A stretch of 64,000 nt of DNA from Dactylorhiza incarnata. Taxonomy: Eukaryota; Streptophyta; Magnoliopsida; Asparagales; Orchidaceae. Shown one piece after another: positions 3,120-64,000 of the stretch. The stretch lies in NCBI GenBank assembly GCA_033032865.1, contig JAWHQI010000099.1:6031501-6095500 (forward strand), written 5' to 3'. The notes under the pieces were generated by a model. It worked only from the letters and a program-made list of their open reading frames with translations, was not told where the DNA came from and searched no databases. Every line of letters starts with the position of its first letter. Position 1 is the first letter of the stretch. The position numbers were made by a program, and so were the translations under genes.

Positions 3120-3354
3120 TGTTAGTAATGGAATGTTCACCTAGAGGGGGGGTGTTAGGTGATCTGGGTTCTTTGTAAGTTATTTGCGCGCGATTCAAAT
3201 ATTCAAGCACAGAACAAAAATTATTGCACAGATAAGGCACACCAGGCGACACAAGATCTATAGAGGTTCCTCAAGACCGGGTGTCTTGAGTAGTCCTCTA
3301 TCCCTATGCGCCTACCCAGCAGTGTGCTAGGATGGTCAAACGCCGCCAAAAACT

Positions 3355-3690: not shown

Positions 3691-4134
3691 GCCTTTATAA
3701 GAGATTACAGTAAAAGAACTGTTTCTTCTGCCGGATGAAGATTGGCAACTTTAGTCTGTTGAAGATCGGCTTCTTAAGGTTGAAGAAGATGCTTCTGAAT
3801 CAGATCTTGAGCGCACAGTTCTTCTTCAATCTTTTGTTATCCTGATAAGGATTGACTTCTTATCAGTCGATGGAGATGACTGCTTCTTCTTTTTCACTTT
3901 TCTTTCTTGCGCCGCTTTTACTGTTCTATTTTCTGTATGCGCAAGTTCTTTCGAATTGATCGATTGATACCGCATTAGGGCAACCTCTTATCTCTTTTAT
4001 AAGACTGCGAGGTCCCCAACGGTCTTATAAAAAAGTTCCTTAAGTGTCAGACGCTCCTTTCCTTAAGAGCACGCACTGATTAGACAATCAGGCGGCGGCA
4101 TTAAATGCTGACAGCGCGTCCGCAACTTTTGAAT

Positions 4135-4830
4135 CTGTCTCGACGATATTTCCATTGTTACGACGACATAGATGATATCTCGATGATAGGACTTTGTCGA
4201 TGCCTTACGCCTTGTTAGATCTTCAATTCTTCTTGCTTCTACCTCTGATACTGGTATCTCGACGATACGAGACATTCTGACGCTTCTGCATAGACGACGA
4301 TATGCTATCTCTGACTGTGTCATCGTAATCACCTTGTTCTCTCGACGACATGAGTGATAACATATCGACAGATCATATTTTAGCAGCTGCTTATCTTCAG
4401 CTGTCCTTCTTCAGTCTTCTCGACGACATGCCTTCTTTACGACGATGTTCGATGCCATCAGTCATACTTAGCCTTTTCAGCGACAAGGCTTCTACACGAT
4501 TATGTCTGTTCTTCTCGACGACAAGGCCACTTTGGTGAAGTCGACGATACTGCATCTTCTTGACGACATTTCTTCCTTTTGTCTTCATTATTCTCTGCGT
4601 TCAACGAACGACAATCTTCGTTCGACGAACAACATTCTTCGATCGACGAGCTTTATTCTTCTGTCCCGTCTCTGCATTCGATGAACTTGCTAAGTTTCAG
4701 CGTTCGACGATCTTGCTTCTGCGTTCGTCGAACATGCCAAGTCTCAGCGGTCGTCGATCTTCCTTCCGAGTTTGACGAACTTCATTCTTCGTTCGACGAA
4801 CTTCCTTCTGCGTTCGACGAATCTTGTTCT
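4135..4830 (-). repeat. TCGACGACA and TTCGACGAAC motif arrays, SIRE1 3' LTR U3
   Basis: About eleven TCTCGACGAYA-like units (4135-4590) are followed by about ten GTTCGACGAAC-like units (4597-4830). All lie upstream of the LTR TATA box in transcript sense, as expected of enhancer-type repeats. Confidence 0.7.
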
Positions 4831-4939
4831 ACTAACTTCCTGAGATTTATAAGCTAGAGAAGTGATCAAATACAAAGTGAAGTTTTCTTGACTTGGTGAC
4901 TTCTTCAAATCAGGAATCATGTGGGCAAGATTCCCAACA

Positions 4940-5190
4940 ATCTCCCCCTATTTGAAGAAGTCAGAATCTCAATTCAAGACTACTTTCACTTGACAACAAA
5001 TATTATAATCTTAACTTTGAGCATGTAAGATTGTACTTATCTTTGCTGAACTCTCTGAGTACATCAAGCTTGTAGCTCCCCCTTGATTTGATGTCTCTTC
5101 TTTTATGGCTCCCCCTACTTCTTTTCTCCCCCTATCTTTGAGGTCTTCTGGAACTCTTCTTTTAGTAGACAATAGTCCAAGGCTCCCCCT
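4940..5190 (-). promoter_or_regulatory. Cluster of five polypurine tracts before SIRE1 3' LTR
   Basis: Minus-strand AGGGGGAG tracts at about 4941-4950, 5076-5083, 5108-5116, 5126-5133 and 5182-5190. The first abuts the LTR and is the functional PPT position. Multiplied PPTs are an established Sirevirus trait. The rest of 5191-5272 is untranslated. Confidence 0.8.
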
Positions 5191-5272
5191 TGCTCGGTCA
5201 CAGTTCATCCCAATCCTGAGAGATTTTCTAACTAAGCATCTAGAAAGGGATTAGTAAAAAATAAGTAGAGGA

Positions 5273-6940
5273 TTACTCTAAGTTTAACATCCCCAGTTGG
5301 AATTTGAAGAAATTAAACTTAGCTTCATCTAGGGGCTTTGTAAATATATCAGCCACTTGTTTGTCTGTTGGGACAAACTCAAGGGTGATATCTTCATTTT
5401 CCACATGCTCCCTGATGAAGTGATACCTGATCTCAATATGCTTAGTCCTACTGTGAGAGACAGGGTTCTTAGCAATGGAAATTGCACTTGACGAGTCATA
5501 AAATAGGGGTGTTTTGGTCATCTTTAGGTTGTAGTCTTCAAGTTGATGTTTGATCCATAGCAGTTGAGCACAGCAGCTCCCACCAGAGATATACTCTGAT
5601 TCTGCTGTTGAGATTGCCACACTAGTCTGCTTCATACTGCTCCAAGAGATCAGTCTTCCACCAAGGAATTGACATGTCCCTGATGTACTCTTCCTGTCTT
5701 CCTTGCACCCTGCATAATCTGCATCTGAATAGCCAGTTAGTTCACATCCATTGTTCCTAGGGTACCATAAGCCAAGATTTGATGTACCCTTTAGGTATCT
5801 TAAGATTCTCTTGACAGAGACATGATGAGATTCCTTAGGATTCACTTGATATCTAGCACAGACACATGCAGCAAACATTATGTCAGACATACTTGCAGTT
5901 AGATAGAGCAAAGATCCAATCATGCATCTGTACTTGGTTTCATCAAAGGGTATGCCCTTCTCATCCTTGTCCAGAGACACATTGGTTCCCATTGGAGTCT
6001 TCATTGAAGAAGCACTCTCCAATCCAAATTTCTTGACTAGCTCCCTAGTGAACTTGGTCTGGGAGATGAATATACCATCTTCAGATTGTTTCACTTGGAG
6101 ACCTAGGAAGTATTTGAGCTCACCCATACTTCTCATCTCAAACATTTCTTGCATCAAGTTGGCAAACTTTTTGCAGAGATTGTTATCTGTAAAGCCAAAA
6201 ATGATGTCATCCACATAGATCTGTACTAGCAAGATCTTGCCCTTCACTTCCCTTAGGAACAATATTTTATCAATCTTTTCCCTTGAGAACTTGTTCTCAA
6301 TTAGAAAGCTTGACAGAGTTTCATACCAGGCCCTAGGTGCCTACTTTAAGCCATAAAGAGCTTTTCTAAGAAAATAAACATAATCAGGATGAGTAGAATC
6401 TACAAAACCTGATGGCTGCTCTACATATACCTCCTCTTTGAGGTCACCATTTATAAAGGCTGACTTCACATCCATCTGGTAGACCTTGAAACCTTGGTAT
6501 GCTGCATAGGCTAGAAACAGTCTTATTGCTTCCAGTCTGGCTACTGGAGCAAATGTCTCATCAAAATCTATCCATTCCTCTTGCCTGTATCCTTTTGCCA
6601 CTAGCCTTGCTTTATTCTTAGTGATGATTCCATTTTCATCCAACTTGTTTCTGTAGACCCATTTAGTTCCTATGATGTTCTGTCCTAGGGGTCTTGAAAC
6701 CAGTTTCCAAACCTTGCATCTCTTAAACTGGTTCAGTTCCTCCTGCATTGCTGCAATCCAAAATGGATCCTGATTCGCTTCCTCAAATTTCTTGGGTTCA
6801 ATTTGAGAGAGAAAGCTCAGGTACAATGCTTCATTTGTAGCTCTGCTCCTTGTCATCACACCTTGGTTGACATTTCCAATTATCTGTTCTTGGGGATGAT
6901 CTCTTACTTGTTTCAAGGCAGTTGGTAGTATTCTGGGCAC
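5273..6940 (-). pseudogene. SIRE1 reverse transcriptase and RNase H
   Basis: 3' half of the copia pol, which converts the RNA genome to DNA. Seen: RT fingers with [33 protein letters not shown], the catalytic IYVDD motif, and RNase H with GYSDADYAGCKEDRKSTSG, STAESEY, and TKHIEIRYHFIREHVE. It ends at 5273. TAG at 6341-6343 splits it in the family's GLKQAPRAWY motif, where CAG (Gln) is expected. The two halves are otherwise in one frame and each is long and well conserved, so inactivation is probably not very old. Confidence 0.9.
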
Positions 6941-8440
6941 TTATGCATTAACAACTTCTTCAGGTTGCATTTCTTCAGCCGTTTCTGAACTTTCTGCAGG
7001 TTTTTCCTCGATTTCGACTATCACTGACTGATTCTTATCTCTGAGTGAGGTGCCAGCATTATCTTCAATGGATAACTTCTCTATTCACTCCACTGTACCT
7101 GCATTCACTAGAGAACTAGACCAGCCCTTATGTATAAGGCTAGTCTCATCAAATACCACATGAACAGATACTTCCACTGCTTGGTTATTGATGTTGTACA
7201 CTCTATAGGCTTTGTTATGAGAGTTGTAGCCAACAAAAATACCCTCACTGCTTTTCTCAGCAAACTTAGTTAGCTTGGATTTCCCATTATTAAGGACATA
7301 TCATTTGCTACCAAAGATCCTAAAGTAGGATAAGGTTGGTTTTCTTCCCTTCATTAACTCATAAGGAGTTTTCTTATGGACTTTGATGATGGAAGCCCTG
7401 TTTATCACATGACAAGCTGTATTGACAGCCTCTGCCCAGAAGTATTCTGGTAGAGAGGAGTCACTTAGCATTGTCCTACTGGACTCTATCAAGGTTCTGT
7501 TCTTCCTTTCAGCAACCCCATTCTGTTGAGGAGTTCTGGGTGAGGAGAATTCTTGGGAGATACCTAGTTCTTGGCATAATTCTGTCATGGCCCCTGACTA
7601 AAATTCTATCCCATGGTCACTTCTGTGTTTGACCACAGTACAGTCCATCTCATTCTGGATCTGTCTGACAAAAATTTTCAAGATATCTAGGGTATTTGAT
7701 TTCTTTTTGAGGAAGAATACCCAAGTGAACCTTGAATAATCATCAACAACTACAAGGGTATAGGTCTTCCCTCCTAAGCTATGAACTGACATAGGACCAA
7801 ACAAATCCAGGTGCAGTAGAAATAAACACCTAGAGGACTCTTTATTAAATATGCTTTTAAAGCTGGTCCTAGTCTGCTTTCTAAGTTGGCAAGCTTGACA
7901 TGGACCATCTTAGATGCACTTAATATCAGGTCCATTTCTAACTAGGTTTTGTGAGAAAATCTTGCCTATTGTCTTATAGTTGATATGTGCAAGTCTCTTG
8001 TGCCATTGAACATAGAGAGCCTCTTTGCCATCAGCCATAAGACATATGGGCATGGAAGAATTTGTATTGAAAAAATTTAAACAATAAATATTCCCACTCC
8101 TAGTGCCAGTTAAGGTAGCCTCAGAATCTAAGGACTTCTTAATTAGACACTTGTCTTTGTGGAAGGTAATAACAAAGCCTAAGTCACAGAGTTGACTTAT
8201 GCTTATGAGATTGTGTTTCAATCCCTCCACATAAGCCACCCTTGTGATGGTAACTAACCCATTTGAGATGCTGCCATAGCCCCTGGTCACTCCCTTTTCT
8301 GAACCTCCAAAAATCACTGTTGGTCCATTCTCCACAGGGGTGAACTCCTTCAAGTACCTTCTGACTCCAGTTATGTGCCTGGAGAAGCCACTGTACAAAT
8401 ACCAAATTGGAGATTGGTTGGCATTTGGACCTACCTGCAA
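6941..8440 (-). pseudogene. SIRE1 protease, GAG-pre-integrase and integrase
   Basis: 5' half of pol. The protease motif reads WYLYSGFSRHITG, with Tyr in place of the catalytic Asp expected in WYLDSG. GAG-pre-integrase is visible in VQWHKRLAHINYKTI. The integrase core is split over 7598-7804 and 7301-7588 (RSDHGIEF, FSSPRTPQQNGVAERKNRTL). 6941-7300 still translates into the integrase C-terminal region and linker to RT but has stops. Inactivated by the Asp-to-Tyr change, several stops and frameshifts. Confidence 0.85.
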
Positions 8441-8446
8441 GACAAA

Positions 8447-10557
8447 TTACTTCCCCTTAGGTACCCAAGATGGATTTGGTCCTCGGTTTCTGTTAGGTTG
8501 ATATAAAGGAACACTAAACCTCAGGGGGTTCTGCACACTCTTTGCATTGAGCCATGTTGGGTTGAACCAATAGTCCAAGGCAAAGTGGCCTACTTTCCCA
8601 CACCACCAGCATTCATGTATGTTGTATCTTCTCTTCTGCTTCACCATCTGAGTGGGGTGGCAGTGTTGATGAGCAGAAGAGCATGCTTCTTGCCTAACAA
8701 ATCTGGGGTGAACCTCATATGTGTGAATTTGGGGTGGAATCGGTCTCACCACATTTTGATTCACCTTCTTGGGAATAGGCTTTGTAGGAACAACCTTTCC
8801 CTTTCTCTTGATTGATGTGGCTGCAGGTTTGTGGGCTGAAGGGCTTGACACCAACACCTTCTTATAGGAAGGTCTAGCTTCAGAATCTTTGCCCGTAACT
8901 GTCTCCCTATTGAAACCAACACCAGCTCTGAACTGTCCAGAGAAGGTATCAATGATAGGCATGATATTTTGGGCATTGAGAAGCTGGATGCAAGTTTCTT
9001 CTCGGCCAACAACATTTCCTCAAGGTCCTTGAATTTGTCCACTTCTTTACTCATAGCAGCCATCTTCTCAGCTGTCTCCTGGAGCTCAGATTGAACAGGC
9101 TTCAAGGAATCTAACTCCTTGTTCTGGACTTTGAGGAGTTTCTTACAGCTTTTGAAGGCTTTCCATAGGGCTTTATATTGCCTTATTAGTTCAGATTCAA
9201 CATCATATTGGGATCTTGAGGCTGTGTTGTTGGCAGCAGACACACCCCCATCATCATGCACAAAATTTGCTACTGATTCAGAATCAGAGTCAGATAGAGG
9301 AGTTCTGTTGTTTACCTTCCCAGGAGAGATGTCATCCTGGTTCCCTTCATTGATGGCCATCAATCCAATAAGTGCCTCGTCCTCAGTCCCAGAGGAGCTT
9401 GAGTCAGAGTCACTCAATGTTCTGGTCTTCTTGGCCACGAACCCTTTTTCAGAGTTCCTCTTGCTCCTTGAGCTTCTTCTTTCTTCATGGTTCCTTGACT
9501 CCTTCTTCTTAGCCATGTGACATGTTTTCCTGTAGGAATAGCAAACAGTATTATTTAAATCATGTCTACTAGAGTTGGATCTGTACCTTCCCTCCCTGGG
9601 AGATTTGGATCTGTCACGATAGTCAGATCTTCTAGAGCTTGAGGAGGAGTTTCTGTGACTGTCCCTCCTCCTTCTGTGTATTAGCTTCCTGAATTGTTTT
9701 GAGAGGAGGGCCACCTCTCTATCAGTATCATCAGAATCAGAAGAGCTGGCTTCTGATTCTTCACTGCTCTCAGATTTTCTCTGAGTTGCAGAGGTCTTTC
9801 CCTTGGCTCTTCTGGTGCTCTCAGCCTTTAGAGCCACAAATCTCTCTCTTGATCTCACTTTTGAGCTTTCTTCTTCAACCTTCCTGGTGTTGAGCTGAAG
9901 TTCATGAGAGAGCAGCTTCCCATACAGATTTTTGGGCTCCATGACACCCAGCTGACCCATCTCTCTGATGGCGCAGATCTTGATGTCCCATTCTTTTGTG
10001 AGGGATCTGAGAAACTTGTCATTTAGATCAGAGTTGGTGAACTCTCTTTCATTGTTTCTCAGACCATTCACTATCTTGAAAAATCTCTCATAGCAGTTGG
10101 AGATTGTTTCATTCTTGCCTTGCTTGAAGGCCTCATACTCTTGGTTGAGAAGGGATTTTCTATCATCCCTTACCTCTTCAGTACCCTCCATGTATACGAT
10201 CAGGGAGTCCCACATCTCCTTGGCCATTTTGCAGTGAATTAGATTTTGGAGGGTTGAGTCATCTACGACACTTACAATGACATTTTGTGCACTCTTATCT
10301 AGGCCTGCCAAGGCTAGCTCATCCTTGGTCATGTCCTCATATTTCTTTACCACCTTCTTTGTTGGATCAACGGTGGAAGTAGTTGTAGGGATAAAGGGAC
10401 CCTGTTGGATTGTCAGATAAATTCTTGGATCAACAGCTTCCATGAACAGCCTAACCCTTTCCTTCCAGATAGGAAAGTTTTCCTTTGAGCAGATTGGAAG
10501 TTTCATGGATCTCATCTCCCGATTCTGATCTCCACCAGCCATAGTGAGTCGTTCCAC
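8447..10557 (-). pseudogene. SIRE1 gag
   Basis: Long Sirevirus-type gag. The N-terminal half is the UBN2/copia gag domain (about residues 15-220, WKERVRLFMEAVDPRIYL). It is followed by a Ser/Arg-rich segment (about 270-340), a degraded first zinc knuckle (CYSYRKTCHMAKKK, two of four ligands lost) and a coiled coil (about 455-530). A frameshift near 8980 moves the frame to 8447-8962, which holds a second knuckle, CWWCGKVGHFALDY, with Tyr for the last Cys. The stop at 8447 precedes protease in another frame. The start is the first ATG after the PBS. Confidence 0.85.
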
Positions 10558-10597
10558 GATCTATATCAGACGGTTAAGTCTTCTTTTGATCAACCTC

Positions 10598-10609
10598 GCT
10601 TTGATACCA
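10598..10609 (-). promoter_or_regulatory. SIRE1 primer-binding site (tRNA-iMet)
   Basis: Minus strand TGGTATCAAAGC, two bases inside the 5' LTR; close to the TGGTATCAGAGC complement of plant initiator-Met tRNA. Confidence 0.85.
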
Positions 10610-10611
10610 CT

Positions 10612-12437
10612 TGTTAGTAATGGAACGTTCACCTAGAGGGGGTGTTAGGTGATCTGGGTTCTTTTTAAGTTATTTGCGCGCGATTCGAATATTCAAGCAC
10701 AGAACAAAAATTATTGCACAGATAAGCACAGATAAGACACACTAGACGACACAAGATCTATAGAGGTTCCTTAAGACCGGGTGTCTTGAGTAGTCCTCTG
10801 TCCCTCTGCGCCTACCCAACAGTGTGCTAGGATCGGCAAATGCCGCCAAAAATTTCAGGCCCTCAAGGCTTAAAACACGGACCCGCAAGTCCAACAGCCT
10901 AGGCCTGCAAGCCCCTACTGCCCCCGAGCCCGCAAGCTCGACACTTAGGCCCTCAAGCCCTACACAACACAGACCCGCAAGTCCTGTGCCTACAGCCTAG
11001 GCCCGCAAGCCCTACTACGCCCGAGCCCTCAAGCTCGACAAGATCGGACCCGCAAGTCCACTACACTGGCCCTCAAGCCTCACAGCTCTTCAGCCCTCAA
11101 GCTAGACGGTGACGGACCCTCAAGTCCACTGCCCTGGCCCTCAAGCCTCACAGCTCTCCAGCCCTCAAGTTAGACAAATAGGCCAGCAAGCCCTTACAAG
11201 AGATTACAGTAAAAGAACTGTTTCTTCTGCCGGATGAAGATTGGCAACTTTAGCCCGTTGAAGATCGGCTTCTTAGGGTTGAAGAAGATGCTTCTGAATC
11301 AGATCTTGAGCACATAGTTCTTCTTTAATCTTTTCTTAGCCCGATGGGGATTGGCTTCTTATCAGTCGATGGAGATGACTGCTTCTTCTTTTTCACTTTT
11401 CTTTCTTGCCCGCTTTTACAGTTCTATTTTCTGTATGCGCAAGTTCTTTCTAATTGATTGATTGATACCGCATTAGGGCAACCTCTTATCTCTTTTATAA
11501 GACTGCGAGGTCCCCAACGGTCTTCTGAAAAAGTTCCTTAAGTGTCAGACGCTCCTTTCCTTAAGAGCACGCGCTGATTAGAAAATCAGGCGGCGACATT
11601 AAATGCTGACAGCGCGTCCGCAACTTTTGAATCTGTCTCGATGATATTTCCATTGTTACGACGACACAGATGATATCTCAACGACAGGACTTTGTCGATG
11701 CCTTACGCCTTGTTAGATCTTCAATTCTTCTTGCTTCTACCTATGATACTGGTATCTCGACGATACAAGACATTCTGGCGCTTCTGCTTATACGACGATA
11801 TGCTATCTCTGACTGTGTCATCGTAATCACCTTGTTCTCTCGACGACATGAGTGATAACATGTCGACAGATCATATTTTAGCAGCTGCTTATCTTCAACT
11901 GTCCTTCTTCAGTCTTCTCGACGACATGCCTTCTTTACGACGATGTTCGACGCCATCAGTCATACTTAGCCTTTTCAGCGACAAGGCTTCTACACGATTA
12001 TGTCTGTTCTTCTCGACGACAAGGCCACTTTGGTGAAGTCGATGATACTGCGTCTTCTTGACGACATTTCTTCCTTTTGTCTTCATTCTTCTCTGCGTTC
12101 GATGAATGACAATCTTTGTTCGACGAACATCATTCTTCGATCGATGAGCTTTATTCTTCTGTCCCGTCTCTGCGTTCGATGAACTTGTCGAGTTTCAGCG
12201 TTTGACGATCTTGCTTCTGCATTCGACGAACACGCCAAGTCTCAGCGGTCGTCGATCTTCCTTCCGAGTTCTACGAACTTCATTCTTCGTTCGACGAACT
12301 TCCTTCTGCGTTCGACGAATCTTGTTCTACTAACTTCCTGAGATTTATAAGCTAGAGAAGCGATCAAATACAAAGTGAAGTTTTCTTGTCTTGGTGACTT
12401 CTTCAAATCAGGAATCATGTGGGCAAGATTCCCAACA
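10612..12437 (-). repeat. SIRE1 5' LTR
   Basis: 1826 bp, clearly paired with 3120-4939 but with scattered substitutions and small indels. It carries the CGCAAG array (10856-11190), TATA box (11493-11499), TCGACGACA array (11636-12070) and TTCGACGAAC array (12096-12322). Confidence 0.92.
11493..11499 (-). promoter_or_regulatory. SIRE1 5' LTR TATA box
   Basis: Minus-strand TATAAAA, conserved in the 3' LTR at 3995-4001. The two CG-motif arrays lie upstream in transcript sense. Confidence 0.65.
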
Positions 12438-12442
12438 ATGGG

Positions 12443-27545: not shown

Positions 27546-27636
27546 GACGATTTGAAACGATTCTATCCTTAAAAATTTTATTATGATGTTAGTGGAATAC
27601 TTCGTCTCACTTGATAGATGTAGATGCTATGCAAAG
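27546..27636 (+). other. Spacer between TL2 integrase and tandem array
   Basis: Short non-coding join between the integrase stop and the 96-bp repeats. Confidence 0.5.
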
Positions 27637-28693
27637 GCTGGCAAGGTGATAACGATTGGTGCTGGAATGCCCCGGATCGATTCCGCTCCCGGGCTCTCAC
27701 TAGACGGGGGGTTCAGGTTGATCTCTAGAGAGGCTGGCAAGGTGACAAGTATTGGTGCTGGAATGCCCCAGATCGATTCCGCTCCCGGGCTCTCATTGGA
27801 CGGGGGGTTCAGGTTGATCTCTGGAGAGGCTGGCAAGGTGACAAGTATTGGTGCTGGAATGCCCCAGATCGATTCCGCTCCCGGGTTCTCACTAGACGGG
27901 GGGTTCAGGTTGATCTCTGGAGAGGCTGGCAAGGTGACAAGTATTGGTGCTGGAATGCCCCAGATCAATTCCGCTCCCGGGCTCTCACTAGACGGGGGGT
28001 TCAGGTTGATCTCTAGAGAGGCTGGCAAGGTGACAAGTATTGGTGCTGGAATGCCCCAGATCGATTCCGCTCTCGGGCTCTCACTAGACGGGAGGTTCAG
28101 GTTGATCTCTGGAGAGGCTGGCAAGGTGACAAGTATTGGTGCTGGAGTGCCCCAGATCGATTTCGCTCCCGGGCTCTCACTAGACGGGGGGTTCAGGTTG
28201 ATCTCTGGAGAGGCTGGGTATTGGTGCTGGAATGCCCCAGATCGATTCCGCTCCCGGGCTCTCACTAGACGGGGGATTCAGGTTGATCTCTGGAGAGGCT
28301 GGCAAGGTGACAAGTATTGGTGCTGGAATGCCCCAGATCGATTCCGCTCCCGGGCTCTCACTAGACGGGGGGTTCAGGTTGATCTCTGGAGAGGCTGGCA
28401 AGGTGACAAGTATTGATGCTGTAATGCCCCAGATCGATTCTGCTCCCAGGCTCTCACTAGACGGGGGGTTCAGGTTGATCTCTGGAGAGGCTGGCAAGGT
28501 GACAAGTATTGGTGCTGGAATGCCCCAGATCGATTTTGCTCTCGGGCTCTCACGAGACGGGGGGTTCAGGTTGATCTCTGGAGAGGCTGGCAAGGTGACA
28601 AGTAGTGGTGCTGGAATGCCCCAGATCGATTCCACTCCCGGGCTCTCACTAGACGGGGGGTTTAGGTTGATCTCTGGAGAGGCTGGCAAAGTC
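27637..28693 (+). repeat. 96-bp tandem array, 11 units plus a partial unit
   Basis: Units start at 27637, 27733, 27829, 27925, 28021, 28117, 28213, 28298, 28394, 28490, 28586 and a partial at 28682. Unit 7 lacks 11 bases. Units differ by only a few bases. Because 96 is divisible by three, several frames stay open on both strands (32-residue repeats), which I do not take as genes. Tandem arrays in the 3' region of Tat elements are known and can seed satellites. Confidence 0.95.
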
Positions 28694-29373
28694 GCAAGTG
28701 GGTTGGGCAGGTAAAATAAGCTACTCATGACAAGAGATTTTGGCTCGCAAGCAACCCCAAGACCCGGGCGAGGCGAGACTGGAGGTCCGCTCGCGCACGA
28801 GAGTCATTCGCGGCAGGGCAATAGAGCCGGCGGCTCGCAAGGTCACTCGCGAACGATATCAAAGCGAATAAGGAAGGTGAGCCGGGAGGAGTCCGTTCTC
28901 GCGGCGAACCGCGAATATCGGTGGGGGCTCGCCAGAGGCAAGTGCGAATGAGGTAGGCTAATGTGGACCCCTCCCGTAAGGCTCTCCAACGAATAACGTC
29001 CCGAATAGAGATAAGGCCCCACAACCTAAGTCCTAACGACGCCACAGAAGAAAGGTAGGCGAGAGCGACCTGGACACAACGCGACGAGGAAAAGCTGCCA
29101 GTAAAATAGAGGCGAGCGCGAACGCCGAACGAAGATCCACAGACACGAACATAAGAAGATTAGGGTCGCGCGGGCACAACAGAAAAGATCGCGTGCGAAT
29201 CGTAAATAAAACTATAACACAGAAAAAGACTGATAAAACATTCTCTTTCATTCCTCACAAAAGATTACAATTCAGCGGCGGTCTCGCCGGAAACAAAAAG
29301 AAAGGAAAACTTTTACATTATTAACAAAAAGAAAAATCAAGGCGGCTCGCCAAGCAGCTCTTCAATCGCTCTC
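28694..29373 (+). other. Non-coding spacer, TL2
   Basis: No supported gene. Rich in CTCGC/GCGAG pentamers in both orientations (GGCTCGCAAGG, CACTCGCGAAC and others). It lies just beyond the end of antisense gene 2. Confidence 0.5.
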
Positions 29374-38211: not shown

Positions 38212-38473
38212 TGATGAGTCCTGATCATATACACTTTTATGGACTCATCTGGGCCGTTTAGTTAGTCATTTCACTGCACTTTAGCCCTGTTTTAGTTCAT
38301 ATTTGTTAATCCATGCTAGGTGCACCTTTTGGCCCATTTTGGTGTGATTTCATGTATATTTTCATTAGTGGTTTTCATGCACTGTTAGGTGCCACTTTTA
38401 GTGGCTGGATTTGTGGTTGTGCGCTAGAACAGGAGTCGTGCAGGTGTTTCCGGTGCAATTCTGCACAGGAACA

Positions 38474-38838
38474 CTGCGCACGATCACAGGTTCTATTGCG
38501 CACGACCACTGGTCGTGCGCCACTGATCGTGTGCACTTAACGCCTTTTTCACGAGTTCTGTTTGGTGCAGTGCGCACGACCACTAATGCCAGTGCGCACG
38601 ACCACCGGTCGTGCGCCACTGCTCGTGCGCACTGACCATTAATTTTTAAGTTCTGTTTCATCTATTGCGCACGACCACTGACGCTAGTGCGCACGACCAC
38701 CGGTCGTGCGCCACTGGTCGTGCGAACATGTTATTTTGTAATTTCTGTCTTTGCAGGTTCTGTCCAGGCAGAGCGCACGATCACAGGATTCCAGTGCGCA
38801 CGACCACTGATCGTGCGCCACTGACCGTGCGCACTGTT
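38474..38838 (+). repeat. GCGCACGACCA/TGGTCGTGCGC quartet array
   Basis: About 16 sites in four modules of about 105 bp. Each module has two forward sites (GCGCACGAYCA) then two reverse sites (TGRTCGTGCGC), the inner pair forming a near-perfect 23-bp inverted repeat. The last site ends 14 bases before the TATA box. Copy at 43359-43723. Confidence 0.9.
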
Positions 38839-38851
38839 TAATTCCAGCGCC

Positions 38852-38858
38852 TATAAAT
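38852..38858 (+). promoter_or_regulatory. LARD 5' LTR TATA box
   Basis: TATAAAT in GCGCCTATAAATTCC, directly after the quartet array; also at 43737-43743 in the 3' LTR and 21053-21059 in the solo LTR. Confidence 0.7.
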
Positions 38859-39911
38859 TCCCTGCTCGCGATTTTAGGTCGGACGCTCGCCCGACTCCGC
38901 CGTTTTCTGCTCCCGTTCGCCCAGTTTCGCCCCTCCATCGCCGCCCACCTTAGGGAGGATCTCCGGGCAAGCTTTCAACGCCAAATCTTTGCCGGAGTTT
39001 CCTCTCGGCCTCCTCCTTCATCCAAGAGCTCCAAAGGAAGACCTAGCCGCTATCTCCATCGAGCAAGAGGAAGTTGGCAACCTCCACCGGATCGTGACAC
39101 GAAGAAGACGGGTCCATTGGAGAGTAGTGACAGCTCTCTCTACCCCGGACGTAGTTGTGGACCGAGCTTGGACGCGGATTGACAACCCGGCGATTCCAAC
39201 CGTGAATCTTCAACGAGCCTTCGGATTCGGTCGATTTCTTGCCTTGTTCTCCTCTTATTGATGTATTTGCAACTAGATCTAACATTATGATGAAGTGTAT
39301 TTTGATTAAATAGCATTTTTACTTGATTATGTCTATGTGATTGAGTATTTTTGTTTATATTATTGAGGTGCGCCTTGTGGTGTGGTTTGTTGGTTGTCCG
39401 GTGCCGCACTAGCAATTGCTAGTGGCGTGCTTGTCGAAGAGGTGCTTGCGACCCTCATTCCGCTAGCCCACTCGCCCATCCGCCTACCGAAGCGTGGCAT
39501 AGCGGCCCGTACTCCATCCCGCCTAACGAAGCAGCGCGCTCAAGGCCTGCATAGTTCGATTCCGTTAGCCTACTCGTCCATCCGCCCTTGCGACGCAGCG
39601 CGCTCAAGGCCTGCCTAGTATCCATTCCGCCAAGCGAAGCCTTGCATAGCGGCATTGCATAGGAGTAGTTGTAGTGTTTTCTTTTATTTTCCAAAAGCCA
39701 ACCCAACTCTCCCGCAATCCATTCGACCTAAAGGACTTCGATCTCAAGTCCTTCCTCGACATTTAACTCCACCTTACTGTGTTCCTCAAGAGACCGACAC
39801 TCGGGGATTTATTCCCAATTTTTATTACTTGAACGATCGGTACACTGCCGTTTCGTGTCGCAGTCGAGCTACCGCCTATAGCGGTGTGTGAGATTTGCGC
39901 CATCAAGTTTT

Positions 39912-43096: not shown

Positions 43097-44790
43097 TGAT
43101 GAGTCCTGATCATATACACTTTTATGGACTCATCTGGGCCGTTTAGTTAGTCATTTCACTGCACTTTAGCCCTGTTTTAGTTCATATTTGTTAATCCATG
43201 CTAGGTGCACCTTTTGGCCCATTTTGGTGTGATTTCATGTATATTTTCATTAGTGGTTTTCATGCACTGTTAGGTGCCACTTTTAGTGGCTGGATTTGTG
43301 GTTGTGCGCTAGAACAGGAGTCGTGCAGGTGTTTCCGGTGCAATTCTGCACAGGAACACTGCGCACGATCACAGGTTCTATTGCGCACGACCACTGGTCG
43401 TGCGCCACTGATCGTGTGCACTTAACGCCTTTTTCACGAGTTCTGTTTGGTGCAGTGCGCACGACCACTAATGCCAGTGCGCACGACCACCGGTCGTGCG
43501 CCACTGCTCGTGCGCACTGACCATTAATTTTTAAGTTCTGTTTCATCTATTGCGCACGACCACTGACGCTAGTGCGCACGACCACCGGTCGTGCGCCACT
43601 GGTCGTGCGAACATGTTATTTTGTAATTTCTGTCTTTGCAGGTTCTGTCCAGGCAGAGCGCACGATCACAGGATTCCAGTGCGCACGACCACTGATCGTG
43701 CGCCACTGACCGTGCGCACTGTTTAATTCCAGCGCCTATAAATTCCCTGCTCGCGATTTTAGGTCGGACGCTCGCCCGACTCCGCCGTTTTCTGCTCCCG
43801 TTCGCCCAGTTTCGCCCCTCCATCGCCGCCCACCTTAGGGAGGATCTCCGGGCAAGCTTTCAACGCCAAATCTTTGCCGGAGTTTCCTCTCGGCCTCCTC
43901 CTTCATCCAAGAGCTCCAAAGGAAGACCTAGCCGCTATCTCCATCGAGCAAGAGGAAGTTGGCAACCTCCACCGGATCGTGACACGAAGAAGACGGGTCC
44001 ATTGGAGAGTAGTGACAGCTCTCTCTACCCCGGACGTAGTTGTGGACCGAGCTTGGACGCGGATTGACAACCCGGCGATTCCAACCGTGAATCTTCAACG
44101 AGCCTTCGGATTCGGTCGATTTCTTGCCTTGTTCTCCTCTTATTGATGTATTTGCAACTAGATCTAACATTATGATGAAGTGTATTTTGATTAAATAGCA
44201 TTTTTACTTGATTATGTCTATGTGATTGAGTATTTTTGTTTATATTATTGAGGTGCGCCTTGTGGTGTGGTTTGTTGGTTGTCCGGTGCCGCACTAGCAA
44301 TTGCTAGTGGCGTGCTTGTCGAAGAGGTGCTTGCGACCCTCATTCCGCTAGCCCACTCGCCCATCCGCCTACCGAAGCGTGGCATAGCGGCCCGTACTCC
44401 ATCCCGCCTAACGAAGCAGCGCGCTCAAGGCCTGCATAGTTCGATTCCGTTAGCCTACTCGTCCATCCGCCCTTGCGACGCAGCGCGCTCAAGGCCTGCC
44501 TAGTATCCATTCCGCCAAGCGAAGCCTTGCATAGCGGCATTGCATAGGAGTAGTTGTAGTGTTTTCTTTTATTTTCCAAAAGCCAACCCAACTCTCCCGC
44601 AATCCATTCGACCTAAAGGACTTCGATCTCAAGTCCTTCCTCGACATTTAACTCCACCTTACTGTGTTCCTCAAGAGACCGACACTCGGGGATTTATTCC
44701 CAATTTTTATTACTTGAACGATCGGTACACTGCCGTTTCGTGTCGCAGTCGAGCTACCGCCTATAGCGGTGTGTGAGATTTGCGCCATCA
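43097..44790 (+). repeat. LARD 3' LTR
   Basis: 1694 bp, appears identical to 38212-39905 (offset 4885). Confidence 0.95.
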
Positions 44791-55582: not shown

Positions 55583-56342
55583 TGTAGTCTTAATCACCTA
55601 GAGTGGGGTGAATAGCTCTCTTTTTAATTTATGCTTTAGCCTAGCTGTTTTCTGAGTTAGTATTAGTAAATCAAGCATACAAAAAACACACAAGCCTTTA
55701 TAGAGGTTCCTCAAGATAGGGTGTCTTGAGTAGTCCTCTTTCCCCCTTCACCTTACTAACAATGAGTTAGACAAGGCCAACACCTCTAATCTCAGCTCCA
55801 AGAGCTTACAACACAGATCCCTCAGGATCTCTCAGGTTTTCCCAAACCCTACCTTAGGCTCAACCGCCCTACCTCAGGCACAGCTGCCCTACACGCTCAG
55901 ACCTATCAAGAAGTTCTACCTCAGATCTCCACAGAGATCCTACTCTCAAGCTGAACTCTTAGCTCTACACTCAGGCACAAACAACCCTACACCCTCGGGC
56001 AAAAGCCCTACAAACTCAGAAAAAATGATGTTCATATAGAAGGTAATGAAGGTAATGCTTACAACATAAGACAAAACAGTTACTCTTTTATTCCTTGATC
56101 TTCTGTTGCTGACTTGAAGCTGTGAAGAGAACAACAGCTTCAATCTAGCCTTTCTCTGATCCTTATCTTTAGTAGATGAGTATGGATCAACTTGCTCTTC
56201 TTCAATCACACATGAAGAGCAATCTTTCTCTCCTTTTCATCTTCAGGAAGCAGAAGGAGAGAACTTCTTAGCAGCCGTCAATGTAATAGTAGAACTGTAT
56301 TCTTTTTGCCAAAGCTGTCTCTTTAAGAGACCTAAAATGTTC

Positions 56343-56349
56343 TTTTATA
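56343..56349 (-). promoter_or_regulatory. SIRE2 LTR TATA box
   Basis: Minus-strand TATAAAA, 121 bases downstream of the motif array in transcript sense. Confidence 0.65.
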
Positions 56350-56469
56350 CATCTCCAATCTTCAACGGCTATCAGATGTCCCCTGACACTGCATGAAGGA
56401 GATTGGAGTACTATATCTTGCTTTTCTGCAACTGGCACTAAAAGCAAAAACCGCCAGCACATTTGAATC

Positions 56470-56665
56470 TGTCTCAGCGGTTGGGCTGAGACAGCTTCCA
56501 GTCTCAATGGCTACTTCTATCCCGTCCCAGCGGATCCGCTGAGACAGACAGTTGTCTCAGCGGTTTTCCTCTATCTGCAGCTCAGCTGGCCCAGACACCT
56601 TCTCAGCGGCTCCTGGCCTTGTCTCAGCGGTTCAGCTGAGACTGAGAACTTGTCTCAACGGTTTT
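56470..56665 (-). repeat. GTCTCAGCGG/CCGCTGAGAC inverted-motif array, SIRE2 LTR
   Basis: About ten sites in both orientations, several paired head-to-head (for example CCCAGCGGATCCGCTGAGA). Confidence 0.85.
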
Positions 56666-56818
56666 GGCAGTAAACCACTGAACTTACTCCACACCTTGGA
56701 ATAACCTAACCCTGCATAGTCATGAGATGAAATAGGGTTTATCAAATACAACTTGTACTTAGCATTGAGTGTGAAGCTTCTTCAAATCAAGGGAACATTG
56801 AGGGTAATATTCCCAACA

Positions 56819-57333: not shown

Positions 57334-60066
57334 CTATCTTCCTCTATTTTCTTGCCTTTTGAAATATAAGAATGGCTTAGGAATGTACTTTGAAGGCATC
57401 CTTCTTGGGTTGTCCTTCCTTACCAGATTGGCTTTGAATATCCTATCTCTTTTAGTGTTTCTTTCTAAGTGCTTTATGCACTCTTCAGATGGATAGGCCT
57501 TATCAATGTCTTTGCATATTTGACCATGGCTTAGCCAGGCATTTAATATTATACTTTTGGAGTCTTCACTCCAATACTCATAATCTGGATCCTTAGACTA
57601 CTCATCCCTTTGTTTTGCCATAAATTCTTCCACTAGCATTATATGCTCTCTTTCTCTTCTTTTTGCCAGTATGACATTTTGAGCAATCTGCTCCTGTCTT
57701 GGGAAGTTCCAATCTTCTTCCCTCTTTCTGTCCAGGAGAGGAAGGTTTAAGGATAACCTTGTTCCTTGTAGAACCTTGATGGCTAGCTCAGAATTTGTTA
57801 CAGCATTGTTATCCTCCCCCTTTCTGGCTTTTTCAAATATTGTTTGACTTATCTCCTGCTTAGCAGCAGTTATTGTGCAAGAGATTGTTTGGAAAATATT
57901 TTCTATATCAAATTTTAGCTCATCCTTGTTCCTCTCAATATCAGCCTTGAGCTCATCCTTGTTTCTGTCAGCCTCACCATTCAACTGCAGAGCAGTGGAG
58001 TATACATATTCTTGGATATGATGTGAGGATTTCTCAATCACTTCATCTGTCTTGCTGTCATAATTTTTTACATATGACATATCCCGTTCAGAGAGTTGTA
58101 GGTGTTTGTCCATTGATCTGAGAATAGTATTTTGAGATACCACTGATTTCTCTGCCAGATCAAACCACTTGGTCATTTGTTTATTCAGGATGGCGGTGTC
58201 TTCCTTGATTTCCTTGACCTCGGCCCTTACTTCAAATTTTACATTGAGGATGGACTGATCAATGTATGCTTTAACTATTGAAGTTGACTTGTCTACATAG
58301 TCCTTCATAGATGGTAGATGAGTCTCTAACATAGTTTGAATAACATTTAGAATGCTCTCATTGGACTGTGAGGAAGTGGAAAGTTGCTGATCAACAATCA
58401 TTTGTGCTTTGAGTATTTATGGAGGACTAAGAGGAGGGACTGATTCCTGAGGACGTATAATCTGCTCTTGTGTTGCAGGTAGCACCTGTTCTGGATTTAT
58501 GACTGTAGCATTATCTCTTTTGCCTTGATCAGCCACCGGATCAGCAAAGGATGCTGGATCATCAATTTGATCATGGTGGACTCCATCATTATCAGCAACA
58601 TTATTATCATCAGATTTTTCTGGCTCCTCCCCCTCAGATAGATCATCTTGATCTGATGAGTCCAAGAAATCTGGGACAATTATTTAGAGTTAGATTTAAT
58701 GACTTAGCAATACTAAGGATGGGTTAATTAGTCTTACCAAGAACATCATCTTGACCAACTGATGGCTCTTTGGGCTTCTCCCCCTTAGATGGGGCATCAG
58801 ATTGTCCTGGTGTAGGTAAATTCCAGAGAGCTGGTTTATTATCAGGATTAAGCCTAATTCTTTCTTGAAGATTGAAAATAAGTCTGTCAATCTGACCTTG
58901 CAAATCCTGAGGTGAAGGCACTGTGTCCTCATTAATCTTGTGAGAGACAGCCTCACCATTATCATTAATATTAGCAACATCCAAGGAAGATGGTTCTTGT
59001 TGTTGCTCCCCCTCAGATAGAGCATTCATCTGGCCTTGAGGAGCTGTGGTCCACATTATTTAAGTGTCATTATAGACTAACTAGTTGATTGGCTATGATT
59101 AAATAACATTATGTGTAATGTGGAGTGTAAGGATTAATTACCAGGAGTGCTATCTATGTCCAGATCCTGTGGATGGACATTATCAGTAGGCATGTCATCC
59201 AGTGGAGCATCCTTGTCAGGAATACTGTGTGATCCAATATCAGCACCAGCATCTTCATTCTTATCTGAGTGGTCTGACTCGGAGCTTGATATGATCATTC
59301 TAGGCTTCTTTATTGATTTGGATTTATTTTTCCCTTTCTCCTTTGCCTCAGTGGGCTGGCTCATGGGGAGCACCCTGGTGAACCTATCTAAGGTCTTTAT
59401 ATCCATCCTTTTCAGGTAATGTATATTTGATCCTTTTAAACCTTTAAACTTCTCAGGATAGGTCTGAATTAGATATAGGGATAGAATTCTACCCATATTT
59501 GGTGCCTGCAGACATTCCTTAAGTCTCTGAAATATGACTTCTCCCCAGGAGGTTTTCTTAGTCAGAATGATCCTTGTCATAATGTCAAACATAGATTGGG
59601 AAATTGTATCATGAGACCCGGGCTTGCATAGGATTTCTTTTCCCACAATGTCTGATAGAAGCTTGCCTCTTTGATTGAAGAATTTCCTTTTCAAAGATCC
59701 AATCTTGTTATCACAATAGTCAGCCCACTTCAGAGCTTTCTTCTTATCCTTATCAGAAATTTCTTCCTCCTCATTTTGGCTGCATGAGGGAATGTGGAAA
59801 GCTTGTTCAATTCTTGCTGAGGAGATTTTCACTCTGTCTCCTCCTATTTTAGACTTCAAAGAGGACTTGGAGGAGGATAATTTGGCATTACTGAACCATT
59901 CCAGAACTTCAGTTCTGAGAATGACTGTGGGTTCAGATAGAATGTACTCCAGACCTTGTGCTTCCAGTAGTTGAATCACTCCCTTTATGTCTTCTGGAGC
60001 ATGGGAAAATCCATTTCTCACAATTTCATACCCTTCCAGAAGATCCATTGAACTCTTGGGTGCCAT
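57334..60066 (-). pseudogene. SIRE2 third ORF, three exons, coiled-coil protein
   Basis: Start chosen at 60066 (MAPKSSMDLLEGYE), the ATG after the internal TATA box with family-like sequence. Exon 1 (60066-59142) has a globular region (FDIMTRIILTKKTSWGEVIF) and a Lys/Ser/Asp-rich tail. GT-AG introns fit at 59141-59044 (98 bp) and 58737-58671 (67 bp), both phase 1; exons total 2568 nt, divisible by three. Exons 2 and 3 repeat an LSEGE-EP motif. Exon 3 has a long heptad coiled coil (58400-57700), then continues in frame past TAG 57598-57600 (DPDYEYWSEDSKSIILNAWL) to TAG 57334. A TAA near 58417 also interrupts it. It sits where Sireviruses carry an env-like gene, but I see no signal peptide or membrane segment. 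Confidence 0.72.
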
Positions 60067-60164
60067 TGTTGTTGTAGAATAAGGCATTGGGATGGAAGAG
60101 AATATGATTCGTCTCAGCGGCTGGGAGGGAAAGGTTGTGTAGCTTTCATTAATTAACAATTGTC

Positions 60165-60172
60165 TATTTATA
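60165..60172 (-). promoter_or_regulatory. Internal TATA box for the SIRE2 third ORF
   Basis: Minus-strand TATAAATA, about 100 bases before the ATG at 60066 and 114 bases downstream of the internal motif array. A short upstream ORF of 11 codons (MKATQPF...) starts just after it. Confidence 0.6.
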
Positions 60173-60285
60173 TGGCTTGAATCTGTGGTTTGATTAGCCC
60201 AAATAGTTAGAGTCAAGTGAACTTATAGTTGTAATGAGAATTAGGTCAAATGGGGTTGCATTTAGACAGACTGTAATGGGACCAT

Positions 60286-60414
60286 CCCGTCTCAGCGGAA
60301 CCGCTGAGATAGTGACCTAAATCGCTGGGACAGAGCACTGTCAACCGCTGGGACAGTTTAGCAGTCTCAGCGGCTCAACTGAGATTTTTCCTAGCTGTCT
60401 CAGCGGCTCAACTG
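60286..60414 (-). repeat. Internal CAGCGG/CCGCTG array, SIRE2
   Basis: About seven sites of the LTR motif (GTCTCAGCGG, CCGCTGAGA, CCGCTGGGACAG), including the head-to-head pair GTCTCAGCGGAACCGCTGAG. It lies between pol and the third ORF. 60415-60583 holds nothing further that I recognise. Confidence 0.85.
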
Positions 60415-60583: not shown

Positions 60584-63500
60584 CTATTCAATATTTAACA
60601 TTCCAAGATCAATCTTGAAAGCATTAAATTTTGCCTCATCGAATGGCTTTGTAAAAATATCAGCAACTTGATTGTCAATGAGGACAAATTCAAGGCAGAT
60701 ATCTTTTCATTCAATATGTTCTCTTATAAAATGATATCTAATCTCTATGTGCTTAGTCCTGCTATGAGAGACGGGATTCTTAGCAATAAAGATAGCACTG
60801 GATGAGTCACAATAAAGAGGAGACTCACTTACCTTGAGGTTGTAGTCCTCTAACTGATGTTGTATCCATAATAGTTGGGCACAACAACTTCCTGTAGCGA
60901 TATATTCAGACTCGGCAGTGGATATTGCCACACTTGTCTGTTTTTTGCTGCTCCAAGATATCAGTCTCCTTCCTAGGAATTGATAAGTACAACTAGTGCT
61001 TTTCCTGTCTTCTTTGCATCCTGCAAAATCTGCATCTAAAAATCCAGTTAGTTCAAAGTCATTGTTCTTAGGGTACCAATGGCCAAGATGTAGGCTGCCT
61101 TTAAGGTATCTCAAAATCTTTTTTGCAGCTGAATAGTGAGATTCCATAGGGCATGCTTGGTACCTAGCACAAACACATATAACATACATAATGTCTGGTC
61201 TACTAGCAGTTAGATATAATAGGGATCCAATAATACACCTGTACATGGATTCATCAAAGGCCTTGCCCTTCTCTTCCTTGTCCAAGGAAATGTTGGACAC
61301 CATGGGATTTTTCATGGTGGAAGCTGATTCCATCCCAAATTTCTTTATAAGCTCCCTAGTGTACTTAGTCTGAGAGATGAATATCCCCTACTCAGACTGT
61401 TTCACTTGGAGGCCTAAGAAGTATTTGAGCTCTCCCATACTACTCATCTCAAACTCCCCCTGCATAGGGTTGGCAAACCTTTTGCAGAGGTTGTCATCAG
61501 TAGACCCATATATTATGTCATCAACATATATTTGGACTATGAGACACTTGCCCCTTATTTCCCTAAGAAACAATGTACTATCTATCTTTCCCCTCAAGAA
61601 CTTGTTCTTGATGAGAAAGCTAGACAAGGTCTCATACCAAGCCCTAGGGGCTTGCTTGGACCACATTGAGATTTTCTAAGTAAATACACATGGGAAAAGA
61701 GGGTTGGATTCACAAAACCTGATGGTTGTTCAACATATACCTCTTCCTTCAAGTCACCATTGAGGAAGGCTTATTTGACATCCATTTGATATACTTTGAA
61801 CCCCTTGTGGGCAGCATAGGCAAGGAATAGCCTAATTGCTTCTAACCTTGCAATAGGGGCAAAGGTTTGATCAAAGTTTATTCCCTCTTCTTGTCTATAG
61901 CCCTTGGCTACCAATTTAGCCTTGTTTTTTATTATTATTCCATTTTCATCCAACTTGTTCCTATAAATCCATTTGGTGCCAATACTGTTGTGTCCTTGAG
62001 GTTTTGGCACCAACTTCCATACCTTGCATCTTTTGAATTGAAGAAGTTCTTTTTGCATGTCTTAAATTCAAAATAAGTCTTGGTTGGCTTCTTCAAACTT
62101 CTTGGGCTCCATTTGTGATAAGAAGCTCAGGAATAGGGCTTCATTGTGAGCCCTGCTTCTGGTTAGTACACCTTGGTTCTGATCTCCAATAATTTGTTCC
62201 CTTGGATGATCCCTTAGGTTTCTTGTAGCTGCAGGCAATATGTCATCAACTGGCTGTATTTCTTCTACTAGTTCAATAGTGTCTTCAGCACCCTACACCT
62301 CTTCATCTTCTAGAATTGCAGCATCTGTATAGGCTTTGCTGCTACTGGGTATGTCTTGTTCAGACATCTTTTCCATCTCCTTTTCACTTCCTGTCAAAAC
62401 AGAAAAACTAGACCATCCCTTATAGATTAGGCTGGTCTTATCAAATACCACATGCATAGACTCTTCTACAACATGAGTTTTCTTGTTATAAACTCTATAA
62501 GATCTACTATGTGAGCTATAGCCAACAAGAACCCCCACATTGCATTTCTCTGCAAACTTTGTTAACTGAGATTTTCCATTGTTTAAGATGTAGCATTTTG
62601 AACCAAAGATTCTAAAGTATGAAATTGTTGGTTGTATGCCTTTCAGAATCTCATAGGGGGTAATTACATGAACCTTATTGATGGAAGCCCTATTGAGAAC
62701 ATAATATGCAGTATTGACTGCCTCAGCCCAGAAGTATTCTGGGAGTGAGGAGTCACTAAGCAATGTTCTCCCAGCTTCTATCAAGGTTCTATTCCTCCTC
62801 TCAGCCACCCAATTTTGTTGTGGAGTCCTTATGGAGGAGAACTCTTGGGTGATACCAAATTCTTGACAAAACCTTGTCATGGCTTCAGGTTGAAATTCTG
62901 TGCCATGGTCAGTCCTAGTCCTGACCACAGAACATTGCAAGTCATTCTGAATTGCCTTGACATAGTTTATAAAGATATTTAAAGTATCTGACTTCTTTTA
63001 AGGAAGAATGCCCATGTATATTTTGAGTGATCATCAATAGTCACCAAAGTATACAACTTCCCACCTAGGCTCTGAATTGGCAAAGGACCAAACAAGTCCA
63101 TGTGCAATAGATATAGACATCTTTCAATGTCTTTGGAGCCAATACTTTTAACGGTGGCCCTTGTTTGCTTACCCATCTGGCAAGCATGACAGGGACCACT
63201 TTTAATACATTTTAAGTTTGGACTATTCCTAACAAGGTTTTTAGAGAATAGTCTATACATTGTCTTGTAGTTAATATGGGCAAGTCTCTTGTGCCATTGA
63301 ACACAAAGAGACTCACTTTCATTGGCCATAAGACATATAGATGATAGAGAATTATTGCATATAAAATCTAAACAATAAACATTCCCACTCCTAGTGCCTG
63401 AGAGAATGGTCTCTAAGTCATTAGACTTTTTGATCAAGCACTTGTCATTGTGGAATTCAATGACATAGCCTAAATCACATAGTTGACTTATGCTTACAAG

Positions 63501-63738
63501 GTTGTGTTGCAAACCTTCAACATAAGCTACCCTTTTGATTGAAACTATGCCATTGGAGATCATACCATATCCTTTGGTGATTCCCCTTTCAGATCCACCA
63601 AAGATGACTTTAGGTCCATTCTTCACAGTTGTGTAGTCCTGTAGAGACTCCTAGTACCTGTCATGTGCCTTGAGCACCCACTGTCCAAGTACCATATTTG
63701 TTTAAGATTGGTACTTGAACTCACCTGCAAGAAGGAGT
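60584..63738 (-). pseudogene. SIRE2 pol
   Basis: Copia pol with frames broken several times. GAG-pre-integrase VQWHKRLAHINYKTM and integrase start in 62979-63626; integrase core with RTRTDHGTEF and FSSIRTPQQNWVAERRNRTL (62293-62940). [16 protein letters not shown] and MDVK (61771-62058), then a stop where Ser is expected. IYVDDIIYGSTDDNL (61388-61666), RNase H with LTGFLDADFAGCKEDRKS and STAESEYIATGS (60707-61333). The frame continues after TGA at 60707 through VADIFTKPFDEAKF to a stop at 60584-60586. The protease active site near 63680 is too degraded to read with confidence. Confidence 0.88.
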
Positions 63739-64000
63739 TTAGTTACCCTTAGGAGCCCAAATAATTTTGGGTCCTAGGTCCTTGTAAGCATGATAAGCTG
63801 ATCTCACACCTGCTGCACCCTTTGCAGAAAGGCTCTTCTTTGCACTTGGCACGTTGGGATTGTGCCAACAGTCTATGGCAAAGTGTCCCACCTTACCACA
63901 ATACCAACATTCATGAATATTGTATCTCCTCTTCTGAACATATCTTGAGGAGAGAGCATCAATATGCTTGTGTTCAGGAGAGGAGACAATAACATTTTTC
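63739..64000 (-). pseudogene. SIRE2 gag, C-terminal end
   Basis: Partial at the window edge. Contains an intact zinc knuckle CWYCGKVGHFAIDC (SIRE1 has Tyr for the last Cys) and the end GPKIIWAPKGN with stop at 63739-63741. Confidence 0.8.

Follow-up and report, generated by a model that had tools for sequence, protein, structure and literature searches.

Two introns and a candidate internal promoter in the env-like gene of a decayed orchid Sirevirus

An internal promoter was proposed for the env-like gene of Sireviruses and not found, and the question of how that gene is expressed has stood open since then (PMC2829016, in the accessible part of its text). In a preliminary description of a 64,000-nucleotide stretch of Dactylorhiza incarnata DNA (hereafter, the window), the third ORF of such an element was read as a gene with two introns and a promoter of its own, copied from the LTR and giving rise to a spliced subgenomic mRNA, and this was offered as the explanation of how sense-strand introns survive retrotransposition. 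The locus therefore raises the questions of whether these introns are real, from where the gene is transcribed, and how the introns persist in an element that replicates through RNA.

The element and its env-like gene

A decayed Sirevirus of the SIRE lineage (Ty1/copia) is represented at 55.6–64 kb of the window, on the minus strand, by its 3′ part, in the order pol, linker, env-like gene, PPT and 3′ LTR; gag and the 5′ LTR lie beyond the window. Its features are as follows:

60590–64000, minus strand: pol (3′ part) of the Sirevirus, broken; ORFs judged by eye and by 73–75% DNA identity
59142–60066, minus strand: exon 1, with the ATG at 60066; weakly like PF20167
59044–59141, minus strand: intron 1, 98 bp, GT-AG, phase 1; exactly missing in copies L058/L059 and L075
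58738–59043, minus strand: exon 2, a variable linker with PPT-like octamers
58671–58737, minus strand: intron 2, 67 bp, GT-AG, phase 1, with a branch-like CTAAC; exactly missing in copies L014, L045, L058/L059 and further lineages
57334–58670, minus strand: exon 3, the later part weakly resembling the C-terminal part of protein P0001; two rare stops in the window copy
55600–56812, minus strand: 3′ LTR, with an RM array at 56661–56471 and a TATA box at 56349; 3′ end approximate

In the window copy, pol is divided among several ORFs, which correspond in order and at 73–75% DNA identity to ORFs at 5283–8638 of a second element; a Pfam scan of one pol piece (60707–61333) returned no family. This second, Sirevirus-like element (3120–12439, minus strand) has no space for an env-like gene; its repeats (10612–12439 and 3120–4941) are 94% alike, and the motif CCGCTGAGAC occurs once in each of them and nowhere between them (0–1 mismatch). 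Elsewhere in the window, direct repeats of 1694 bp (38212–39905 and 43097–44790) are 100% identical and probably flank a very young element as its LTRs, and an array of 96-bp tandem repeats with several open frames (27583–28728) lies behind a Ty3/gypsy-like pol recognised by eye.

Several Sirevirus characters were found. At the 3′ LTR, GGGGGGAG-AT-TG was read directly, i.e. a PPT followed by AT/TG, and the linker holds multiple octamers AGGGGGAG (minus strand, 59013, 58785, 58634 and 57821); a further AGGGGGAG lies in pol at 61461, and the terminal copy by the LTR is one base off. Three of the octamers (58634–59013) belong to a 32-base repeat and are situated within the env-like gene, in its exons 2 and 3; the fourth is that at 57821. 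Upstream of the LTR TATA box, which reads TATAAA(A/T) in 20 of the 28 copies having that part of the LTR, there is an array of CGG-CCG palindromes. Since such RM boxes were found in 13 of 21 Sireviruses (Bousios et al. 2010, PMC2829016, accessible text), this array supports membership of the group and does not define it. Finally, an ORF lies on the sense strand between pol and the 3′ LTR, as is characteristic of the Sirevirus env-like gene (eORF-3′F).

As the preliminary description had it, two GT-AG introns, both in phase 1, rejoin one frame (intron 1 with GT at 59141 and AG at 59045–59044; intron 2 with GT at 58737 and AG at 58672–58671), and the exons (925 + 306 + 1337 = 2568 bp, from the ATG at 60066 to the stop at 57336–57334) add up to a length divisible by three. 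A GT-AG pair that rejoins a frame is easily found by chance, and it is the other copies of the element that lift this model above chance. These were collected from the plant's own genome (3.27 Gb) with exon 1 as a probe; the best 40 of 4842 candidates, the window copy included, were retained, the other 39 being taken from ~60800 to ~56300 and aligned with the window. Selection by score biases this sample towards close copies.

The ATG at 60066 was kept in 32 of the 40 aligned copies, and an alternative start at 60087 was rejected, being an ATG in only 3 of 40; out-of-frame ATGs precede the start at 60112 (17/40) and 60149 (28/40). Within the predicted exon frames, no stop was common to more than eight copies (58488, 8/33), and stops made up 0.5–1.1% of codons vs 2.5–16.7% in the other frames. 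The introns carried on average 1.3–4.9 stops in each frame, one frame of intron 2 being open in 8 of 29 copies. Shared variants, defined as a minor letter present in at least three copies, were in excess at third codon positions in exon 1 (57/46/113 at positions one to three) and late exon 3 (53/42/97), with no clear excess in exon 2 (36/22/34) and early exon 3 (20/15/16); singletons showed none. Indel runs were multiples of three in 18 of 31 cases in exon 2 and 28 of 41 in early exon 3, as against 1 of 18 in both introns and 9 of 124 in the flanking non-coding sequence. The introns are T-rich and G-poor (T 0.32–0.33, G 0.10; in exons 1 to 3a, T 0.25–0.26, G 0.21–0.22). Most copies are decayed, with an open frame left in 6/40 for exon 1, 18/36 for exon 2, 13/20 for early exon 3 and 4/31 for late exon 3. 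The window copy is itself a relic, and its two exon-3 stops are rare, recurring in 3/26 and 2/31 aligned copies. Annotation of the env-like ORF as intronless would end the gene model directly after exon 1.

Exon 1 resembles PF20167 (Transposase_32, putative plant transposon protein) at 22 bits (E 1.6e-4), below the Pfam cut-off of 45 bits. The sole database relative in protein searches was P0001, a single uninterrupted ORF of 527 residues that carries PF20167 and is 45% identical over 78% of the query. Searches of viral contigs, plasmids and the PDB gave no relative outside the plant's own genome. As to kinship with a true retroviral Env, the PDB contained no sequence match to exon 1, and a structure model of exon 1 was unusable (pLDDT 34.6).

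Presence and precise absence of the introns

Among the first-set copies with both flanks, intron 1 was present in 36 of 37; intron 2 was present in 29 of 31, or 29 of 35 if four copies with an altered exon-2 end, judged by eye, are counted. The GT was kept in 32/37 and the AG in 24/36 copies of intron 1, and in 28/29 and 25/32, respectively, of intron 2. It should be noted that both AGs fall below the mean conservation of dinucleotides in their introns (0.67 vs 0.79 in intron 1, 0.78 vs 0.86 in intron 2); 13 of the 19 AG changes are from AG to AA, which we tentatively take to be decay of methylated sites.

The strongest evidence for the introns comes from natural copies that lack them precisely. 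Both are gone at exactly the predicted positions in L058 and L059, which resemble the window at 83–84% along most of their extent; these two copies lie ~7.1 kb apart on G000:C1362 and are 99.9% alike, as a tandem or duplicated element. L045 has exactly lost intron 2 and kept intron 1, whilst L014 has exactly lost intron 2 and has lost intron 1 along with seven further bases; L075 lacks exactly intron 1 and has unrelated sequence at the intron-2 site, and C3039 combines the intron-1 junction with the intron-2 donor. Four further copies (L018, L037, L041 and L046), with an intron-2-free junction and the altered exon-2 end, form one well-supported group on the tree.

With at most three mismatches, the genome has 111 places that match the exon 2–exon 3 junction and 199 that match the intron-2 donor (control, 0 in each case), numbers that do not form a clean ratio because the two patterns reach different lineages. 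The exon 1–exon 2 junction pattern matched at 24 places, of which most with three mismatches are unspliced acceptors; four were accepted as junctions (C1362 twice, C3039 and C2139). All four of the copies chosen by their intron-2-free junction (L067–L070) contain intron 1 with GT-AG, and L069 and L070 show intron 1 kept and intron 2 missing.

L070 belongs to a clade ~72% alike to the window. Ten of its 40 scored copies were read irrespective of introns; in nine, intron 1 and intron 2 both occupy the same sites and carry GT-AG, the tenth being L075. Between the clades, similarity is 0.67–0.68 in the intron bodies and 0.82–0.88 in the splice ends, which measure 6 to 22 bases each. As both introns are shared by the two clades, they predate the clade split and have since been lost on repeated occasions; the absence of intron 2 takes three changes on the exon-1 tree. 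A gain of intron 2 in the window clade, which a tree rooted with lineages chosen for lacking it had favoured by one step, was rejected, since the intron is present in 9/9 informative copies among the ten read from that outgroup clade.

The two introns are thus strongly supported by intron-free copies with the predicted junctions and by their presence in the more distant clade, and a comparison of copies leaves them almost certainly real. Copies without introns at the predicted junctions indicate that the introns are spliced and that spliced RNA has re-entered elements.

The source of the env-like messenger

Upstream of the ATG, the following features may be relevant to transcription:

60286–60414, minus strand: RM palindrome array (CAGCGG/CCGCTG), resembling the LTR array; 0.89 identity between clades
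60244–60267, minus strand: conserved non-coding block TCTAAATGCAACC..., between array and TATA; every 11-base window fully conserved between clades
60165–60172, minus strand: TATA box TATAAATA of the presumed internal promoter; exact in 27/33 copies
60121–60136, minus strand: pyrimidine-rich stretch ending in AG (CTTTCCCTCCCAG), a candidate promoter Y-patch or 3′ splice site

The positions of the array and of the TATA box, and a spacing between them (~113–116 bases) close to that in the LTR (~121), agree with the preliminary description, and alignment of other family copies, the check it had suggested, found introns, array and TATA conserved. CCGCTG/CAGCGG occurs at 60406, 60373, 60350, 60306 and 60298. 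With at most one mismatch, CCGCTGAGAC has 20 matches in the window vs 3.4 expected, a number reached in none of 100 shuffles; eight lie in the LTR array and six ahead of the third ORF, one of these six (60120–60111, after the TATA box) being an addition to those first listed. On the minus strand above 55600, TATAWAW is represented only by TATAAATA at 60172 and by TATAAAA at 56349 in the LTR.

Conservation of the TATA box among the close copies is moderate (TATAAATA ranks 13th of 198 8-mers). Between clades, the TATA 11-mer CATATAAATAG is identical at 11/11 positions and its flanks at 0.68–0.71; of 350 windows of 11 bases, 57 show no difference between the clades, and the array and the 60244–60267 block account for 54 of these. 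(A between-clade value of 0.21 for the exon-1 tail is an artefact, as the fetched pieces start inside it.) Array and TATA stand in register in seven of nine upstream pieces from the second clade, with the TATA one base short in L082; L089 has the TATA and pol instead of the array, and L081 has neither. In L021 and L089, pol appears by eye to have been joined by an internal deletion just upstream of the TATA box (~60190–60198). The block TCTAAATGCAACCC...TTGACC (60244–60267), 8-mers of which are exact in up to 31/33 copies, outdoes the TATA box in conservation both within and between clades and is a possible further promoter element.

Of the proposal that the promoter was copied from the LTR, the palindromic part stands: the region upstream of the env-like gene and the LTR have the RM palindromes alone in common (29 bp, matched by 0 of 300 shuffles). 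The TATA and core parts, on the other hand, are unlike (score 15, 277/300 shuffles as good), and the core matches the whole LTR (score 28, 2/200 shuffles as good) solely through the RM unit at 60120.

An own promoter for the gene is favoured by the conservation of array and TATA in both clades, whereas the acceptor-like AG at 60121 offers a rival route. In the latter, the env-like mRNA would come from the LTR promoter, a leader donor being spliced in retrovirus-like fashion to the acceptor at 60121 and the internal introns removed as well, with the array and TATA left as relics or serving another role. The stretch at 60136–60121 (CAACCTTTCCCTCCCAG) has 13 pyrimidines in the 15 positions before the AG, lies 55 bases ahead of the ATG, and keeps its AG in 32/34 copies (local mean dinucleotide conservation 0.79, other AGs being equally kept); spliced env RNA has been reported for Bagy2 (PMC3735527, accessible text), and L014 and L058 reveal that templates extending beyond the internal transcript have been spliced. 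Against this, the stretch is less conserved between clades (0.75) than the TATA (1.00) or the array (0.89), and a leader, whose own site is outside the window, was joined to 60120 in none of nine truncated copies examined over 3.5 kb upstream each. The upstream stretches of these nine copies, including an LTR-like match in L015 and pol in L021, show no common origin. For that reason, and as the other breakpoints scatter widely, the 5′ end of L013 at 60140 was treated as chance and not as evidence of a start site. L070, in which env begins directly at the ATG, was likewise rejected as a leader-spliced copy; the stretch before its ATG weakly matches the LTR reversed (67.5%, E 5e-5), and we regard it as a rearrangement. 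On balance, we consider this LTR-derived, leader-spliced mRNA unlikely. An internal promoter is plausible, supported by these comparisons and unproven, and would be the more likely of the two routes; we do not call it shown, mainly because of the pyrimidine-rich AG at 60121.

Another possible explanation, which we hold to be clearly less probable still, is that the introns are real and env RNA arises from both LTR and internal sources, a fraction of all RNA being spliced in the manner of BARE1 or Ogre and the internal promoter being minor. Precise losses in elements that retain the pol end, array and TATA are in keeping with it, as are the partial states of L045, L069 and L070 (intron 1 only) and of C3039 (intron-1 junction with intron-2 donor). 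However, most close copies retain both introns (36/37; 29/31 or 29/35), which makes routine splicing of the replicating RNA unlikely. Hardly credible is the reading of the introns as decay, i.e. frameshifts and stops bridged by chance GT-AG pairs, since, for all the rare exon-3 stops of the window copy, the decay of most copies and the ubiquity of GT-AG pairs, the same introns occur in both clades and are exactly absent from several lineages, a coding signal flanks them with none inside, and L058/L059, L045 and L075 contradict it.

Messenger, genome and known systems

We consider it probable, from comparison of genomic copies, that the third ORF is a three-exon Sirevirus env-like gene that is spliced and most likely transcribed from the internal TATA box, and that the genomic RNA normally remains unspliced. 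The internal TATA promoter, under the same palindromic boxes as the LTR, would drive the gene; the subgenomic mRNA would start ~30 bases after the TATA box and be separate from the genomic RNA, two spliceosomal introns would be removed from it, and a role is presumed for its protein. The genomic RNA would normally escape splicing at both introns and so keep them. Failure of this escape, or recombination with spliced RNA, would yield precisely intron-free elements, some of which became multi-copy lineages.

The suggestion that an internal promoter explains the survival of the introns holds in part, the difficulty being the precise losses in copies that have the promoter region and the pol end. 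L014 and L058 retain about the same identity upstream, past the internal TATA and into the end of pol, and downstream towards the LTR, so that a plain copy of the internal mRNA cannot explain their losses. These call for splicing of genome-length RNA or for a switch of reverse transcriptase between genomic and spliced RNA templates; in other words, RNA extending above the retained promoter at times undergoes splicing and reverse transcription, or recombination with spliced RNA. These losses set a limit on the explanation.

More tentatively, the introns in this Sirevirus clade may tag messenger against genome, with an internal promoter regulated like the LTR giving a spliced env mRNA and the genomic RNA staying unspliced. 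If true, precisely intron-free copies would be a natural record of failures of this separation. A defined TATA box, two introns and intron-free copies allow exact RT-PCR, CAGE and reporter tests of env-like expression, and the presence or absence of introns can serve across the genome to mark when spliced RNA returned to the replication cycle.

A likeness is seen in Grande, whose accessory gene, an extra one in the 3′ internal region, is said to be 'transcribed from its own promoter'. Grande is reportedly a Ty3/gypsy element with the gene in antisense.

The following comparisons draw on the accessible parts of the papers cited. According to a review (PMC12786077), plant LTR elements generally lack introns, with Ogre and EVADE as named exceptions. 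Ogre (Ty3/gypsy) resembles the present element in being a plant LTR retrotransposon with an intron removed from part of its transcripts (PMC6317226, PMC12786077), and BARE1 and EVADE (Ty1/copia) in having facultative introns and a spliced subgenomic RNA (PMC3735527, PMC8892269); the introns of the latter two differ in serving Gag production. Separate RNA pools are said to serve the translation and the replication of BARE (PMC3735527, PMC8892269). Bagy2 and Athila (Ty3/gypsy) share an env-like gene behind pol, with splicing reported (Bagy2) or acceptors predicted, and differ in that the accessible text mentions no intron inside the env ORF (PMC3735527, PMC2829016).

For Sireviruses themselves, RM clusters upstream of ENV and the idea of an internal promoter are already published. 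Bousios et al. (2010, PMC2829016) described RM clusters upstream of ENV in nine Sireviruses, with a TATA box after the LTR cluster; an internal promoter was supported and not conclusively identified, the idea being credited to Peterson-Burch and Voytas (2002). The word intron is not used in the accessible part of that paper, nor does it appear in that of MASiVEdb (PMC3414828), where the gene is described as expressed via stop-codon suppression and an internal promoter. A literature search, with most subscription journals outside its reach, brought up no account of an intron inside the env-like gene of a Sirevirus. The Sireviruses of PMC2829016, as far as its accessible text goes, share with the element described here the CGG-CCG boxes before the LTR TATA and before ENV and the multiple AGGGGGAG octamers, which there lie mostly after ENV, whereas here four are inside the env-like gene; what the present element adds to them is a conserved TATA box at LTR-like spacing and two introns.
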